DNA of 62,535 nucleotides from Candidatus Nomurabacteria bacterium (GTDB lineage Bacteria > Patescibacteriota > Saccharimonadia > Saccharimonadales > Saccharimonadaceae), in contig JAITNW010000008.1 in NCBI GenBank assembly GCA_031290255.1, positions 1 to 62,535 of the forward strand. The letters are read 5' to 3'. Below, one piece after another: positions 33 to 60,618 of the stretch. The notes beneath the pieces are model-generated. The model saw nothing but the letters and a program-made list of their open reading frames with translations, was not told where the DNA came from and did not search any database. Both the position numbers and the translations under genes were made by a program. Within the stretch, counting starts at the first letter, position 1. Each line of letters opens with the position of its first letter.

Positions 33-114
33 GCGGGTGGTGAGGTCTAGGGGCATCCCCGCAAAAAGAATTTCTTAAATTTTTTTGTGGGGAGAAGACC
101 TCGACAGGACCCGC
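33..114. repeat. 82-bp structured repeat, copy 1
   Basis: This is an imperfect palindrome bounded by GCGGGT and ACCCGC, with inner arms GAGGTCT and AGACCTC and a central hairpin around an A/T-rich loop. It matches, in inverse orientation, two identical copies at 20947-21028 and 59880-59961. This copy differs only around the central stem, where the ends remain complementary (CCCC/GGGG). It lies downstream of the ileS stop. The rest of 1-165 shows nothing recognisable. Confidence 0.85.
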
Positions 115-165: not shown

Positions 166-3156
166 TTAAGCTTTTTCTAAGGAGATGGTGAGGAGTTTGC
201 TGTCTATTTTGATGATTTCGTCGTAGGAGTAGTTTTCGCCTATTTTTAGGGTGGTGGCTAGGGTTTCTTGCTGGATTGTTGGCTTGAAGGCTTCTGGGAT
301 GGGCTGGGAGATGGAGAGATTGATGCGGTCGTCGACGTTGAGGCCGGCTTTTTTGCGGGCGGATTGGATGAAGCGGATGAGTTCGCGGGCGAAGCCTTCG
401 TCGCGGAGTTCGGGCGTGAGGGTTTTGTTGAGCTCAATTTCGCCTGCGTGATGAGTAATTTTTTTAACGTTGACTTCTTCGGCGATAATTTGTTCGTAGA
501 AATTATCGAGTTTGTCTCCGTTGTACTTCAGTTCTGATAGGGGTTGACGGACCTTGATTTGACCGTATTCATCTTGAGTATTCATGCGAAGGGCTAGGCC
601 ATCGGTGATGATGCGGCGGCAGGTAGCCATGTTGTTCAGGGACTCTTCGTCTATTGTTCCGGCGGCTGGCCAGTCTTCAAGATGGACGGAATTTTCGCCG
701 ATCATGTTTTGCCAAAGCTCTTCAGCTAGGAATGGAACGAAAGGCGCAAGCAGTAGCGCTAAATACGAAAGTGCGTAGTGGAGAGTTTCGTAGGCTTCGA
801 CTTTATCGGCGCCTTTGTCGGATTTCCAGAAGCGGCGGCGGCTACGGCGGACGAACCAGTTGGAGAGATCGTCAATGAACGGGAGTACTCCGGCGAGGGC
901 GTCGGGGAGGTTATATTGATTCATGTTTTTGGTAATTTCGTCTCGGAGCTGGTAAATACGAGAAATAATCCAGGTGTCTAGGGGATTTTTAAGATTTTTT
1001 GGAGGCTTTAGGTCGCCATTGAATTCCCAACCGTCGACTTCGGCGTACATGGTGAAGAAATCGTAGACATTCCAGACCATGGTGAGCTTGCGGGCGACGT
1101 CGCTGACGTCTTTGTCGAGGAGAGCGAAGTCTTCGCCGGAGAGGACTGGGGAGGAAAGCATAAGGAAGCGGAGGGCGTCGGCGGAGAATTTGTCCATGAG
1201 ATCGTTGGGGTCGGTGTAGTTGCCGAGGGATTTGCTCATCTTGCGGCCGTCGTTGCCAGCTAGAGTGCCAGTGGTGATGACGTTTTTGTAGGCGCGGTCA
1301 TCAAAGAGCGCGGTATTGACGACGTGGACGTAGTAGAACCAAGCTCTGACTTGGCCGATATACTCCACGATGAAGTCGGCGGGGTAGTTTTTTTCGAAGT
1401 TTTCTTTGTTTTCGAAGGGGTAGTGGAGCTGGGCGAATGGCATGGAGCCAGATTCAAACCAGCAATCTAGGACTTTTTCGATGCGAGTGAATTTTTCGCC
1501 ATTTATTTCGAAGGTCACTTCGTCGACCCAGGGGCGATGGTAATCTTGGAGTGTTTTGCCAGATAATTTCTCTAATTCTTCGTAGCTCCCGAGAACCTTT
1601 ATGGTGCCTTTGTCGCCTTTCCAGACGGGCATTGGGGTCGCCCAGAAACGGTCGCGAGAGAGATTCCAGTCGGGGGCTTGCTCGATGTTCTTGGCAAAAC
1701 GGCCATGCTTAAGATATTCTGGGAACCAATTGATGTCTTCGTTTTTTTCAAGCATCAGCGCTTTGCTATCTTGGATATCGAAGAACCAGCTGGGGATGGC
1801 GCGGTACATAATGCGCTGTTTGCTGCGTGGGTTGAATGGGTACTCGTGACGAATATAGTCGATTTTCCAAACAACGCCGGCTTCTTGCAAACATTTTGCA
1901 ATAAACTTATTGCCCTCCCAAACCTCAATTTTGTCGGCGTGAGTCGGTTTCACGCCCAGTTTTTCCAACTCTTTTTGCATTTCGGGCAAGTAAAAACCCT
2001 CTGCGTCCAGCACGTCCACGACTGGGATATTATGTTTCAATGCTAATGCGTAATCATCCTCGCCATACGCCGGCGCGATATGCACGATGCCCGTGCCGCC
2101 CTCGTTCTCCACAAACTCCGCCGCCCAAACTTTATGAGCGTTTCCGGAGACAACTGAGCCGTCTACCTCTGGGAAAATTGGAACATACTCGATTCCAACC
2201 AGGTCTTCCCCGCTCATTTCTCGCACAATTTTATAATCAAGCGGTTGTTTTTTGTCGTCAACCAAAACTTTCTCCACTAAGTCTTTGGCAAGTATCAAAC
2301 GCAGCTTGTCATTCTCGGGCTTGACCCGAGAATCCAGTTTTTTACTAGATTCTGAATCAAGTTCAGAATGACGATTCACCTCAACTTCCACATACTGCAA
2401 TTTCGGATTGACCGCCAACGCCATATTGCCTGGCAAAGTCCACGGGGTTGTTGTCCAGGCTAAGAGATATTTTTTATGGCTGGATTCTGAATCAAGTTCA
2501 GAATGACGAACTTTGAACTTCACAAAAACACTCGGATCTGTAACGGTTTGATACGCGTCATTATCCATCGTCACCTCGTTTTTGCTGACTGGCGTGGCGA
2601 ATTTGGTGTCGTACATCAGGACTTTCTTGCCTTCGTAGATTTTGCCCTTGTCGTAGAGGGTTTTGAACGCCCACCAAACCGACTCCATAAAATCCTTGTC
2701 CATGGTTTTGTATGCGCCTTTGAAATCAACCCAGCGACCGATGCGGTCAATGACTTGCTCCCAAGTTTCGCTGTTGGCAACCATACTTTCGCGGGCTTTA
2801 GTGATGTATTCTTCTAGGCTGATTTTGGTGCCAATTTCACGACGGTCGGTAATGCTAAGTTGCTTTTCCACAAAGTTTTCTGCTGGCAAACCGTGGCAAT
2901 CCCAGCCCCAGCGACGTTCTACTCGGAAGCCATTCATGGTCCAGAAGCGTGGCACTGCGTCTTTGACTACAGATGAAAGCAATGTGCCATGATGAGGATT
3001 GCCCGTAATAAACGGTGGGCCATCATAAAATACGTAAGTTTTGTCAGCGCTACGCATTTCAATGGATTTTTCGAAGGTATTGTGCTTTTTCCAGAAATCC
3101 ACTAGTGCTTTTTCGTATTCTGAGGCTCTGCGCCTTTCTCCGTATTTGTACTTCAT
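166..3156 (-). CDS. ileS: Isoleucyl-tRNA synthetase
   Basis: This class I synthetase charges tRNA-Ile with isoleucine in the cytosol. At 996 residues it has the HIGH-type motif PHHGT at 54-58, the editing-domain signature WTTTPWTLPGN and KMSKS at 639-643. The motif context (GPPFITGNPHHGT) resembles the archaeal/eukaryotic-like IleS type. The start ATG overlaps the upstream HAD gene stop as ATGA. Two in-frame insertions at residues about 217-227 and 262-283 are translated palindromic repeats (HSELDSESS) flanking the editing-domain signature. A T-box leader upstream of the HAD gene should regulate the pair according to tRNA-Ile charging. Confidence 0.97.
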   Translation of the reverse strand: MKYKYGERRRASEYEKALVDFWKKHNTFEKSIEMRSADKTYVFYDGPPFITGNPHHGTLLSSVVKDAVPRFWTMNGFRVERRWGWDCHGLPAENFVEKQLSITDRREIGTKISLEEYITKARESMVANSETWEQVIDRIGRWVDFKGAYKTMDKDFMESVWWAFKTLYDKGKIYEGKKVLMYDTKFATPVSKNEVTMDNDAYQTVTDPSVFVKFKVRHSELDSESSHKKYLLAWTTTPWTLPGNMALAVNPKLQYVEVEVNRHSELDSESSKKLDSRVKPENDKLRLILAKDLVEKVLVDDKKQPLDYKIVREMSGEDLVGIEYVPIFPEVDGSVVSGNAHKVWAAEFVENEGGTGIVHIAPAYGEDDYALALKHNIPVVDVLDAEGFYLPEMQKELEKLGVKPTHADKIEVWEGNKFIAKCLQEAGVVWKIDYIRHEYPFNPRSKQRIMYRAIPSWFFDIQDSKALMLEKNEDINWFPEYLKHGRFAKNIEQAPDWNLSRDRFWATPMPVWKGDKGTIKVLGSYEELEKLSGKTLQDYHRPWVDEVTFEINGEKFTRIEKVLDCWFESGSMPFAQLHYPFENKENFEKNYPADFIVEYIGQVRAWFYYVHVVNTALFDDRAYKNVITTGTLAGNDGRKMSKSLGNYTDPNDLMDKFSADALRFLMLSSPVLSGEDFALLDKDVSDVARKLTMVWNVYDFFTMYAEVDGWEFNGDLKPPKNLKNPLDTWIISRIYQLRDEITKNMNQYNLPDALAGVLPFIDDLSNWFVRRSRRRFWKSDKGADKVEAYETLHYALSYLALLLAPFVPFLAEELWQNMIGENSVHLEDWPAAGTIDEESLNNMATCRRIITDGLALRMNTQDEYGQIKVRQPLSELKYNGDKLDNFYEQIIAEEVNVKKITHHAGEIELNKTLTPELRDEGFARELIRFIQSARKKAGLNVDDRINLSISQPIPEAFKPTIQQETLATTLKIGENYSYDEIIKIDSKLLTISLEKA
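2308..2372. repeat. REP-like palindromic pair inside ileS
   Basis: Two palindromic units lie in inverted orientation about 10 bases apart. The left unit pairs ATTCTCGGG with CCCGAGAAT and the right unit pairs ATTCTGAA with TTCAGAAT. In the ileS frame it encodes about 22 residues, including HSELDSESS and LDSRVKPEND. The layout resembles a REPIN or MITE-type double repeat. Confidence 0.8.
2480..2507. repeat. Single REP-like palindrome inside ileS
   Basis: This is a single unit sharing 25 identical bases with the right half of the 2308-2372 element. It is also in frame in ileS and encodes RHSELDSESS just before the editing-domain signature. Confidence 0.8.
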
Positions 3157-9472: not shown

Positions 9473-9532
9473 ATGGTTATTATTTTATCATATCTTGTCG
9501 AGATAGACAATGATTATTTACGCTAATTGGAA

Positions 9533-9672
9533 CGAACCGAGCGCAGCCTGTCTAGAGAGGCCCTTTTGCGTGCGCGCCCGTCTTTACGGGGCGCAGGCGC
9601 TGCAGTTGGCTGGAATTAGGGGCGTGCACGCCCCTCTTCCACATCCTCTCTAGACAGGCTGCGCTCGGTTCG
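9533..9672. repeat. 140-bp element with perfect 28-bp terminal inverted repeats
   Basis: The arms 9533-9560 and 9645-9672 are exact reverse complements (beginning CGAACCGAGCGCAGCCTG). The 84-bp centre contains smaller hairpins (for example AGGGGCGTGCACGCCCCT) and no ORF. No target duplication is obvious. It fills the gap between the rpsU upstream region and the 3' end of recJ and may be MITE-like or a long RNA hairpin. Confidence 0.85.
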
Positions 9673-9692
9673 CCCAAAAGTGCGTTAGCGCT

Positions 9693-13617: not shown

Positions 13618-13620
13618 TGA

Positions 13621-13734
13621 GAGAGCTCACTTTTCGCTCATATCCTTACATTATATTATTGAAAATAATGTAATGGTGCGGATATTCGGAAAAGTGAGAG
13701 AGCTCTCCCTTTTCGCTCATATCCTTACATTATA
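13621..13734. repeat. Intergenic inverted plus direct repeat
   Basis: AGAGCTCACTTTTC (13622 onward) pairs with GAAAAGTGAGAGAGCTCT ending near 13706, giving a long hairpin. The 26-base string starting CTTTTCGCTCATATCCTTAC occurs at 13630-13655 and again at 13709-13734. It fills the priA-def gap and may act as a terminator or be a small element with a partial duplication. Confidence 0.7.
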
Positions 13735-20476: not shown

Positions 20477-20845
20477 TTAGTTGCGACGGTGATTGCGGTG
20501 GATAGTGGTGGCGGTGAGAGCTAGAATGTAGGTGGAGAGGCCGGCTAGGAGAGCTGGGAGGATGATGTCTTCTGGGCCGGTTTTGGGGAGGTTTTCTGGG
20601 GATTCGGTGATGGTGGGGAGTTCGGGGGTGACCTCGGCTACTAAGGGTTTATCTTCTTCTGAGGTGGCTGGCTCTTCTGTGGTGGTGTCTTGTTCGCTGG
20701 TTTCTTCTGGGTTGGCTATTTCATCTGATGGTTTTGGGCCGGATAGAGAGATGGCGATGATCAAACCGGCGATGACTATGATGGCGACTAGGCCTACTAT
20801 TGCCCACCAGCCCCATTTCTTGATGTTGGTTGTCGGTTGTTCCAT
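20477..20845 (-). CDS. LPXTG-anchored surface protein with N-terminal membrane helix
   Basis: The 122-residue protein has a hydrophobic segment at 12-36, a Pro/Glu/Thr-rich stalk at 37-85, LPKTG at 86-90, a second hydrophobic segment at about 94-114 and a basic tail (HRNHRRN). This is a full sortase sorting signal. The sortase would cleave between T and G and attach the protein to the cell surface. The short stalk leaves little room for a functional domain. AAGGAG precedes the ATG. Confidence 0.85.
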   Translation of the reverse strand: MEQPTTNIKKWGWWAIVGLVAIIVIAGLIIAISLSGPKPSDEIANPEETSEQDTTTEEPATSEEDKPLVAEVTPELPTITESPENLPKTGPEDIILPALLAGLSTYILALTATTIHRNHRRN

Positions 20846-20946: not shown

Positions 20947-21028
20947 GCGGGTCCTGTCGAGGTCTTCTCCCCAGAAAAAAATTTAAGAAATTTTCTTTCT
21001 GGGGATGCCCCTAGACCTCGCCACCCGC
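20947..21028. repeat. 82-bp structured repeat, copy 2
   Basis: This copy is identical to 59880-59961 and the inverse of 33-114. Nested arms are GCGGGT/ACCCGC, GAGGTCT/AGACCTC and CCCCAGAAA/TTTCTGGGG. It sits between divergent genes, so it is not simply a terminator of one of them. Confidence 0.9.
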
Positions 21029-21226: not shown

Positions 21227-22027
21227 ATGTATTTGTGTGTGGATATTGGAGGTACTAAGACGTTGGTGGCGCTTGTGAATGAGGCGGGTAAGATTGTGCG
21301 GTTTTCGAAATTTGCGACGGCTTTTGATCAGAAGCGGTTTTTTGCGATGTTGGTGGAGGAGATTCGGATTGGTTTTTGTATGGACAATGTGCGGGCTATA
21401 TCGGTGGCGATGCCGGGGCCGACGGAAAAAAATCAGGCTCTGTGGCTGGGAAATTTACCTTGGGCGAATTTTGATATTGCTGGGGATTTGAATGCGGAGT
21501 TTGGGTTGCCGGTGTTTGTGGAGAATGATGCGAATTTGGCAGGGTTGGCGGAGGCGGCTAGCTTTAGGGGTTTATCGGTATATTTGACGTTTTCTACGGG
21601 TGTGGGTGGGGGCGTGGTGAGGAATGGAGAGATGGAGGCTTCGACGCGGATTTATGAGCCGGGTCATGATAAGTATGAGTGGGATGGCAATGTGATGGAG
21701 TGGGAGGACTTTGCTTCAGCTAAAGCGGTGGCGGATTATTTCGGGAAGTTGACTAGTGAGATTAGCTCACCAGATGATTGGCATGAGGTGGCAATGCGAA
21801 TTGCGACGGGACTGCACTCGGTGGTTTCTTCGATTCGGCCGAATCATATTATTTTTGGGGGGCCGTTAGGGCTAGAGCTGAAGAAGTATCAGAGGTATTT
21901 GAAGAAAGAACTTGAGGAGCAATTGTCTCCTGGAGCGAAAATGCCCAAGCTGACGGTGGCAAAGCTTGGGGATAAATCGGTAATTTATGGTTGCTACATC
22001 TATGCTAGAGATCAACTCGTTAATTGA
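21227..22027 (+). CDS. ROK-family sugar kinase
   Basis: The protein (266 aa) begins CVDIGGTKTLVALV, the ROK phosphate loop, with VAMPGPTEKN, VENDANLAGLAEA (catalytic Asp in ENDAN) and STGVGGGVV following. The zinc-finger cysteines of many ROK kinases are missing. It likely phosphorylates a hexose such as glucose; specificity cannot be read from sequence. ATG 21227 was chosen because it follows a -10 box by 6 bases; an upstream extension would run through the 82-bp repeat. It overlaps the next gene by 41 bases. Confidence 0.88.
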   Translation: MYLCVDIGGTKTLVALVNEAGKIVRFSKFATAFDQKRFFAMLVEEIRIGFCMDNVRAISVAMPGPTEKNQALWLGNLPWANFDIAGDLNAEFGLPVFVENDANLAGLAEAASFRGLSVYLTFSTGVGGGVVRNGEMEASTRIYEPGHDKYEWDGNVMEWEDFASAKAVADYFGKLTSEISSPDDWHEVAMRIATGLHSVVSSIRPNHIIFGGPLGLELKKYQRYLKKELEEQLSPGAKMPKLTVAKLGDKSVIYGCYIYARDQLVN

Positions 22028-59700: not shown

Positions 59701-59776
59701 TGGTAGCCCGGGAGCGAGTCGAACGCACAACCTTCTCCTTAGGACGGAGCTGCTCTATCCATTGAGCTACCGGGCC
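59701..59776 (-). tRNA. tRNA-Arg (CCU)
   Basis: Acceptor GGCCCGG/CCGGGCT with a G1-U72 end pair, loop GTCCTAA with anticodon CCT, and encoded CCA. It lies just upstream of the PH-domain gene. Confidence 0.92.
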
Positions 59777-60075
59777 ACTTTTATAATTATAGCATAGTGG
59801 GCTATTCTCTGTTGGGCCTTAGGTAATTAGTTGGGGGTGGGTTTTGTGAGCAAAAACTAGAAAGGATTGGCTTGGTGGGGCGGGTCCTGTCGAGGTCTTC
59901 TCCCCAGAAAAAAATTTAAGAAATTTTCTTTCTGGGGATGCCCCTAGACCTCGCCACCCGCTCTTATGCTGTTTGTTAGTTGGCGGGATGTTGCAATATT
60001 ATGAACTGTTGAATTACCGCTATTGAATCACCGTGTTTTCCGCATGTTATGACATTTCTCGTCTTTAGGGGTGGG
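59777..60075. other. Intergenic region with repeat copy 3
   Basis: Apart from the 82-bp repeat, I see no gene or clear terminator here. Confidence 0.5.
59880..59961. repeat. 82-bp structured repeat, copy 3
   Basis: This is base-for-base identical to 20947-21028, 39 kb away, and lies downstream of ndk. The surrounding sequences share no similarity, so the boundaries of the repeat are sharp at GCGGGT and ACCCGC. Confidence 0.9.
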
Positions 60076-60618
60076 CTATCTGGTAAACTTTTCGTTTAGG
60101 GTCTCGTAGCTCTGGATTTGGTCGGGCTCGAACCAGTGGGAGACTTCCTGAGCGGCTTCTTCAATACTTCCGCTGGCGTGGATGAGGTTGGGGACTCCGG
60201 TGTGGCGGGCGTTGGCATAACCAAAGCTCATATGTGCGTAATCGCCTCTGATGGTGCCCATGTCTGCGGACATTGGCTCGGTGGAACCAACGATTTTGCG
60301 GATGAGCGCGATTGCTTCAACTCCTTCTAGAACCATGGCAATCACTGGGCCGCTGGTCATAAAGGCGAGGGTTTCGTCGAAAGCCTCTTGCCCACGTCTG
60401 GAAACCATCTTGCTAATGCCTTCATAGTGCTGATAGTAGTGCTGTGTGTCAGGATTGGCCATCTTCGTGGCGACAATCTTAAGACCAACGCGCTCAAAGC
60501 GGCTGAGGATTTCTCCGACAATACCGCGCTGGACAGCGTCGGGCTTAAACACGACCAAACTCTGCTGTACTAAGCCATCAGTCGGCTGAGCCTCTTCTTT
60601 TTTCTTTTTTTCTGCCAT
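60076..60618 (-). CDS. ndk: Nucleoside diphosphate kinase
   Basis: Ndk balances nucleoside triphosphates. VVFKPDAVQRGIVGEILSRFE starts the core near 22, and the catalytic histidine lies in NLIHASGSIEEA (about 147). At 180 aa it is longer than usual (about 140), with a charged N-terminal extension (MAEKKKKEEAQPTDG) and an insertion of about 15 residues near MSADMGTIRGDY-adjacent loops. AAAGGAG precedes the ATG. Confidence 0.95.
   Translation of the reverse strand: MAEKKKKEEAQPTDGLVQQSLVVFKPDAVQRGIVGEILSRFERVGLKIVATKMANPDTQHYYQHYEGISKMVSRRGQEAFDETLAFMTSGPVIAMVLEGVEAIALIRKIVGSTEPMSADMGTIRGDYAHMSFGYANARHTGVPNLIHASGSIEEAAQEVSHWFEPDQIQSYETLNEKFTR

Follow-up and report, generated by a model that had tools for sequence, protein, structure and literature searches.

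The 82-bp hairpin that occurs three times in the window (the whole stretch of 62,535 nucleotides analysed here, from a Candidatus Nomurabacteria bacterium) is probably one of a family of mobile DNA elements that are small and non-autonomous, with a bulged palindrome as their unit. They behave like Rickettsia palindromic elements (RPE) and would be selfish. The element is dispersed, conserved in structure and tolerated in frame within genes, and empty sites are preserved; from its copy number, its empty sites and its patchy distribution I infer that it moves. On this reading it is not a riboswitch or an ordinary structured RNA. The suggestion of a MITE-like element, made in the first-pass annotation of this DNA, is now well supported by the dispersed copies, an empty site, relatives across the phylum and the palindromic structure.

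Copies in the window and in its genome

All three copies placed in the window by the first-pass annotation were present in the sequence at those positions and on those strands (Table 1), and folding reproduced their nested stems: an outer GCGGGT/ACCCGC, a middle GAGGTCT/AGACCTC and an inner CCCC/GGGG. The contexts given for them (after ileS, after ndk and between a divergent gene pair) held as well, the ndk copy lying between the 3' end of that gene and tRNA-Arg. The 20947 and 59880 copies are identical over 83 bp. The 33-114 copy was said to differ from these only in the inner stem-loop, and this is true for five of the six positions that differ out of 82: the inner stem changes there from AG..CT to AC..GC, which includes a compensatory G-C to C-G pair, while the sixth difference, G to A, lies outside it, just 3' of the middle stem. 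Only 32 bp separate the same copy from the end of contig C9. Contig C8 starts with the first ~119 bp of C9, so that what lies to the left of the copy is a break in the assembly rather than an established neighbour.

Table 1. Copies of the element in the window, and parts of the 20947-21028 copy
Feature	Position	Strand	Score, context or conservation
Element copy, 82-bp core	20947..21028	+	63.8 bits (model R3); between divergent genes, 20477-20845 (-) and a + gene apparently starting near 21229
Element copy, identical to the 20947-21028 copy	59880..59961	+	70.3 bits (model R3); between tRNA-Arg (59701-59776, -) and the ndk 3' end (60076-60618, -)
Element copy, AC..GC inner-stem type	33..114	-	57.1 bits (model R3); 52 bp from the ileS 3' end (166-3156, -), at contig end
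Outer stem, 5' arm GCGGGT	20947..20952	+	CGGGT conserved across the phylum
Lower internal loop, conserved 5' side CCTGY	20953..20957	+	Near-invariant in alignment A4 and in distant families
Middle stem, 5' arm GAGGTCT	20959..20965	+	Compensatory changes; AGAGTCT in other copies of the genome, highly variable in relatives
Inner stem, 3' arm GGGG, with C-rich 3' internal loop ATGCCCCT	21001..21012	+	TCCCCCTCC and similar in relatives
Middle stem, 3' arm AGACCTC	21013..21019	+	Compensatory changes
Outer stem, 3' arm ACCCGC	21023..21028	+	Compensatory changes

BLASTN against the window's own genome (697,830 bp in 16 contigs) returned 17 full copies of two types. A-type copies have GAGGTCT/AGACCTC and the ends GCGGGT..ACCCGC, B-type copies have AGAGTCT/AGACTCT and the ends GAACGGGT..ACCCGTTC, and one copy (L013) is a mixture of both. 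A covariance model added a 49-nt short form on contig C7 (37071-37119), in which the outer and middle stems are kept without the inner hairpin. In the stretches that were fetched, copies lie in spacers beside ordinary genes, namely unrelated housekeeping genes such as fpg, recO, a class II tRNA synthetase, rnc and a rarA-like gene, among others; no copy was found in frame within a long ORF in this genome, and no transposase among the flanking genes checked. Among the loci examined in this genome and its relatives, partial copies consisting of the 5' end only (GCGGGTCCTGTCGAGG..) stand directly 5' of full copies at L010, L011, L012, L039, L045, L055, L070 and L091, and may bear on how copies insert.

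Other repeats were also seen in the window. Positions 9520-9560 and 9645-9685 form an inverted repeat in a spacer, with 41-nt arms that are 85% complementary and 84 nt apart, and 13619-13655 and 13698-13734 are the 37-nt units of a direct repeat (92%), their starts 79 bp apart; it lies just past the end of one gene and runs into another ORF.

Structure and covariation

The window copies had folding z-scores of -5 to -7 relative to shuffled sequences. Among 14 copies from the genome, six pairs are changed on both sides yet still paired, and the structure scores above every slid version of itself. In the alignment of the genome's copies 99.2% of cells are paired, and 29 double-change cells were counted against 10.7 ± 2.8 in shuffles, a contrast that overstates significance because the copies are mutually related. 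Independent of this evidence, compensatory changes were found in 14 of 22 pairs over 62 aligned copies. Conservation is concentrated in the stem base CGGGTCCTGYCG...CGTCACCCG and in the pyrimidine-rich (C-rich) internal loops. The middle stem and the tip vary freely, nearly always as Watson-Crick pairs, and copies range in length from about 65 to 130 nt. The protein-binding site suggested in the first-pass annotation is conceivable, since a base and bulges conserved in this way hint at a protein that recognises the hairpin.

Copies from the sister genus g27 have two more covarying pairs outside the core (92% and 77% Watson-Crick), the first of which is G-C and C-G in nearly equal numbers; beyond these pairs stand TC at the left end and TGT at the right, and the ends of the element read TC-NN-RCGGGT...ACCCGY-NN-TGT. 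The sharp 82-bp ends described by the first-pass annotation hold as the ends of a conserved core but are not necessarily those of the inserted unit, one insert in the window's genome being 125 bp long. Outer arms AGC..GCT beyond the core in that genome, seen by eye and in alignment A1, were not significant per copy against shuffles and are not counted as a stem. For the mirror C-tracts, neither a triplex nor another pairing gave a convincing arrangement.

An unlikely alternative is that the element works as RNA, either as a structured regulator or within 3'-UTRs (riboswitch-like, an attenuator or an mRNA stabiliser), and is conserved for its function in each transcript. This would suit the very stable predicted folds, the strong covariation and the many intergenic copies that follow a stop codon at 0-15 nt and precede a -10-like box. 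One position is moreover a fixed G.T in 49 of the 62 copies, which favours the + strand, so that the folding strand, if any, is probably +. The composition of the helices argues the other way: an RNA helix under selection is expected to hold many more G.U than A.C pairs, whereas helix pairs flanked by good pairs in copies from g27 and the related genus g63 comprise 884 Watson-Crick, 8 G.T and 6 A.C, so that the helices are almost purely Watson-Crick and G.T is as rare as A.C. Copies also occur in both orientations to genes, their neighbours are unrelated, orthologous spacers lack them, no Rfam family matches the element, and many of the listed copies lie inside ORFs (see below). Nearly exclusive Watson-Crick pairing, both gene orientations and the many copies in frame in coding sequence likewise speak against the "mobile RNA element" of the first-pass annotation.

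Distribution among relatives

The BLASTN check proposed in the first-pass annotation succeeded in the window's own genome; in 60 relatives, of which 36 belong to the same genus, it gave no match, and a nucleotide search in plasmids and phages returned nothing. Relatives were recovered with a covariance model (R2) run over 393 genomes of the order: the same hairpin is present in 33 genomes of g27 and in one genome of g63, both in the same family as the window's genome. Since nucleotide searches were empty while the covariance model was positive, the family is visible only through its structure. Eight congeners searched at full model sensitivity had no copies.

A refined covariance model (R3), built from 62 copies, matched 24 of 380 genomes across the phylum, which represent at least 11 family-level groups. 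Carriers searched at full sensitivity hold 3-25 copies each, with up to 25 per genome in g27. The first-pass annotation had staked its case on further copies and on covariation, and both were found.

A pattern scan of viral contigs gave no match, and a looser viral pattern gave 83 matches, but R3 run over the 714 kb concerned gave no score above 27 bits; phage carriage is rejected on this result, which also serves as a specificity control for the model. The sole pattern match in genome contigs, from Burkholderia, had no R3 match and was put down to chance. The part of the literature on palindromic or MITE elements in Saccharibacteria and Patescibacteria that was covered held nothing relevant.

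Empty sites

The copy beside fpg marks the one locus of the window's genome that was resolved to the base, and it is empty in congeners. These read ..AATCCGATG/ATGATACAATA.. (the slash marking the junction), and the window's genome reads ..AACCCAATG (125 bp) ATGATATAATA..; the 125 bp are inserted between ATG and ATGATATAAT, and six congeners differ from this genome by 122-127 bp at the locus. The insert gives the upstream gene a new stop codon and leaves a -10 box in place. The empty site reads ATG/ATG and no target duplication is evident; at other loci the relatives are too diverged for such a reading. In g27, inserts in TopA and ArgRS are missing from most of 40 genomes, with a net insert of 90 nt at the first ArgRS site.

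The spacer between tRNA-Arg and ndk in the window exceeds that of 14 congeners by 149-247 bp, which means that it gained more than the 59880 element alone. Further gained DNA probably lies in the parts around that element (59777-59879 and 59962-60075).

Copies within genes

At least 35 of the 87 copies listed for g27 and g63 lie within ORFs of at least 200 aa that stay open through the element, and further loci examined (distant families included) added 7 more copies inside open ORFs of at least 200 aa. These copies occur in both orientations and in several reading frames; the one frame that is not used is a reverse frame with a conserved TGA (GGGTGAC), as expected if selection keeps only open frames. 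Hosts identified with Pfam include three with paired inserts, namely IleRS (two in one gene), TopA (two identical ones) and ArgRS (two), besides PriA, QueA, TGT, CysRS, TyrRS, a PBP transpeptidase, a UvrD-type helicase, RecG, IF-2, an ATP-dependent DNA ligase and others.

In several genes, species share the point of insertion but differ in the element sequence found there. Opposite orientations were seen at one position in QueA (L066:3789, L078:3012, L086:3932) and in CysS (L066:2001, L078:1020, L086:2001), which may reflect independent insertion at one spot or a hairpin inverted in place. In a same-site pair from two species (L053 and L060) the element is 97% identical and the flanks about 78%, and this could point to selection for function or to gene conversion rather than to pure selfishness.

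An AlphaFold model of one host protein, the ArgRS of G322 (662 aa, 29 sequences), is mostly confident except at residues 69-112, 269-291 and 536-574. Both element inserts fall within these low-confidence stretches, as does a third insert that is specific to the lineage, and the model suggests that the ArgRS inserts are probably loose loops, although low pLDDT is partly expected here because most of the aligned sequences lack them. The second ArgRS site, between RAKKIL and ERNL in the g27 orthologues (L134-L147), is an insert hotspot that holds unrelated peptide families (VAQNEGLKTVSREG.., RRGVRSLARRG.. and HNRRRGDYGATEARNDG..), which look like further in-frame repeat families. In-frame palindromes of a second kind are present in the ileS gene of the window, the g27 counterpart of which contains the element. 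They are REP-like with a CGTC tag (CGTCATTCTGAACTTGATTCAGAATC) and lie at 2338-2374 and 2473-2509, one of them followed by another palindrome (CTGGATTCTCGGGTCAAGCCCGAGAATGAC), and the peptides encoded are VRHSELDSESS and NRHSELDSESSKKLDSRVKPENDK.

Search for a mobilising enzyme

The transposase survey covered the Y1 family in genomes and other transposases among the flanking genes checked. The Pfam model Y1_Tnp had no match in the window's genome, and no Y1 or RAYT gene was found in 33 of the 34 other carriers; the exception, the g63 carrier G398 (L163, L164), has two Y1_Tnp (IS200-type) genes. The search for a full-length relative with a transposase, as envisaged in the first-pass annotation, found none.

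These results bear directly on whether the copies are REP-like palindromes mobilised by a RAYT/Y1 (IS200/IS605-type) transposase, which I consider quite unlikely. Such enzymes use substrates of this type, namely single-strand hairpins that are bulged and conserved at the base; no clear target duplication was seen, and G398 does have the genes. Against this stand the missing Y1_Tnp matches in the remaining carriers, units of about 65-130 bp rather than 20-40, and ends without a GTAG tag; the drafts might lack the gene, or the Pfam model might miss the enzyme, but this is unlikely to hold for 33 genomes.

An intrinsic terminator or boundary cassette that spread through insulating genes is very unlikely. 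The hairpin runs directly into a T-tract in two of the four B-type copies of the window's genome (L015 and L014), and many copies stand directly after stop codons, but A-type copies have no T-tract, both orientations occur, and many copies lie in frame within essential genes, which must be transcribed through. Integron attC-like recombination sites share a variable tip, a conserved base and bulges with the element, and same-orientation runs 0.3-2 kb apart exist in some g27 contigs, but the ends are CGGGT..ACCCG rather than the integron R-box (RYYYAAC/GTTRRRY), copies lie inside ORFs rather than between cassettes and flanking genes are housekeeping genes, which makes this reading extremely improbable. 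The apparent integron-like array of close g27 copies was itself discarded, many of them proving to lie within single ORFs.

Proposed mechanism and significance

A mobile DNA element thus remains the preferred reading, and its movement may be pictured as follows. Once extruded, in single-stranded or cruciform form, the hairpin would be recognised at its base (CGGGT-CCTGYC / YC-ACCCG) by a trans-acting enzyme, which would copy it to other sites and leave no clear target-site duplication. Selection would then purge insertions that break genes, leaving spacer copies and in-frame copies in loop regions, the latter adding about 24-42 residues as judged from the open reading frames. The element itself would be selfish with no fixed cellular role, and its perfect pairing might persist because copies are young and/or because template switching during replication repairs one arm from the other. 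A bolder version is conceivable, if doubtful: a phylum-wide mobile hairpin with an undescribed base-recognising enzyme might continually seed in-frame peptides into essential proteins of the streamlined Patescibacteria, its arms staying Watson-Crick perfect while the sequence drifts.

Selfish palindromes that sit in frame within genes have been described chiefly in Rickettsia and Wolbachia, where their mode of movement is not known. The element would represent a separate case that spans a phylum of tiny parasitic bacteria, whose genomes are among the smallest known for bacteria; many of its copies look recent, and empty sites are preserved. Covariation marks the parts that must be recognised, and the conserved base and fixed loops offer a defined substrate for an enzyme hunt. 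The inserts in IleRS, TopA, ArgRS, IF-2 and RecG can be regarded as natural experiments on where essential proteins tolerate 24-42 extra residues.

Comparison with known systems

Like the GTAG REPs associated with RAYT, the element is an imperfect palindrome dispersed in spacers, but it has no GTAG at its ends and 34 of the 35 carriers tested have no RAYT gene. It resembles MITEs (Correia/NEMIS, RUP, ERIC) in being small, non-autonomous, hairpin-forming and intergenic, sometimes intragenic, with terminal inverted repeats, and differs from them in that its symmetry extends over the whole unit. No clear target-site duplication was seen, and no parent transposon turned up in the survey of Y1 genes and of the flanking genes checked.

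CGTC-tagged REPs, which include RPE-4 and RPE-6, are palindromes that lack a dedicated transposase and are found in reduced genomes such as those of Rickettsia; they form hairpins of 20-40 bp with an unpaired CGTC at one end (PMC3733652). The element is likewise a palindrome for which no dedicated transposase was found here, whereas its CGTC is internal and partly paired, and its unit measures about 65-130 bp with two internal loops.

RPE are stem-loops of 105-146 bp that occur between genes and in frame in conserved genes, with target-site duplication listed as unknown (PMC2229807). Compared by description rather than by sequence, the element differs from RPE in its phylum, in its conserved bulged base (CGGGTCCTGYCG/CGTCACCCG) with a freely covarying middle stem and tip, and in forming one recognisable family over at least 11 family-level groups. 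It shares with RPE and with the protein-coding palindromes of Wolbachia a palindromic unit in many copies (about 100-150 bp in those systems). As with RPE, no autonomous partner is known, orthologues exist without the insert (TopA, ArgRS and one spacer copy of the window's genome), spacer copies occur besides in-frame copies in conserved genes (here in g27 and distant families), and the unit is a long palindrome that folds into a stem-loop with inverted ends.
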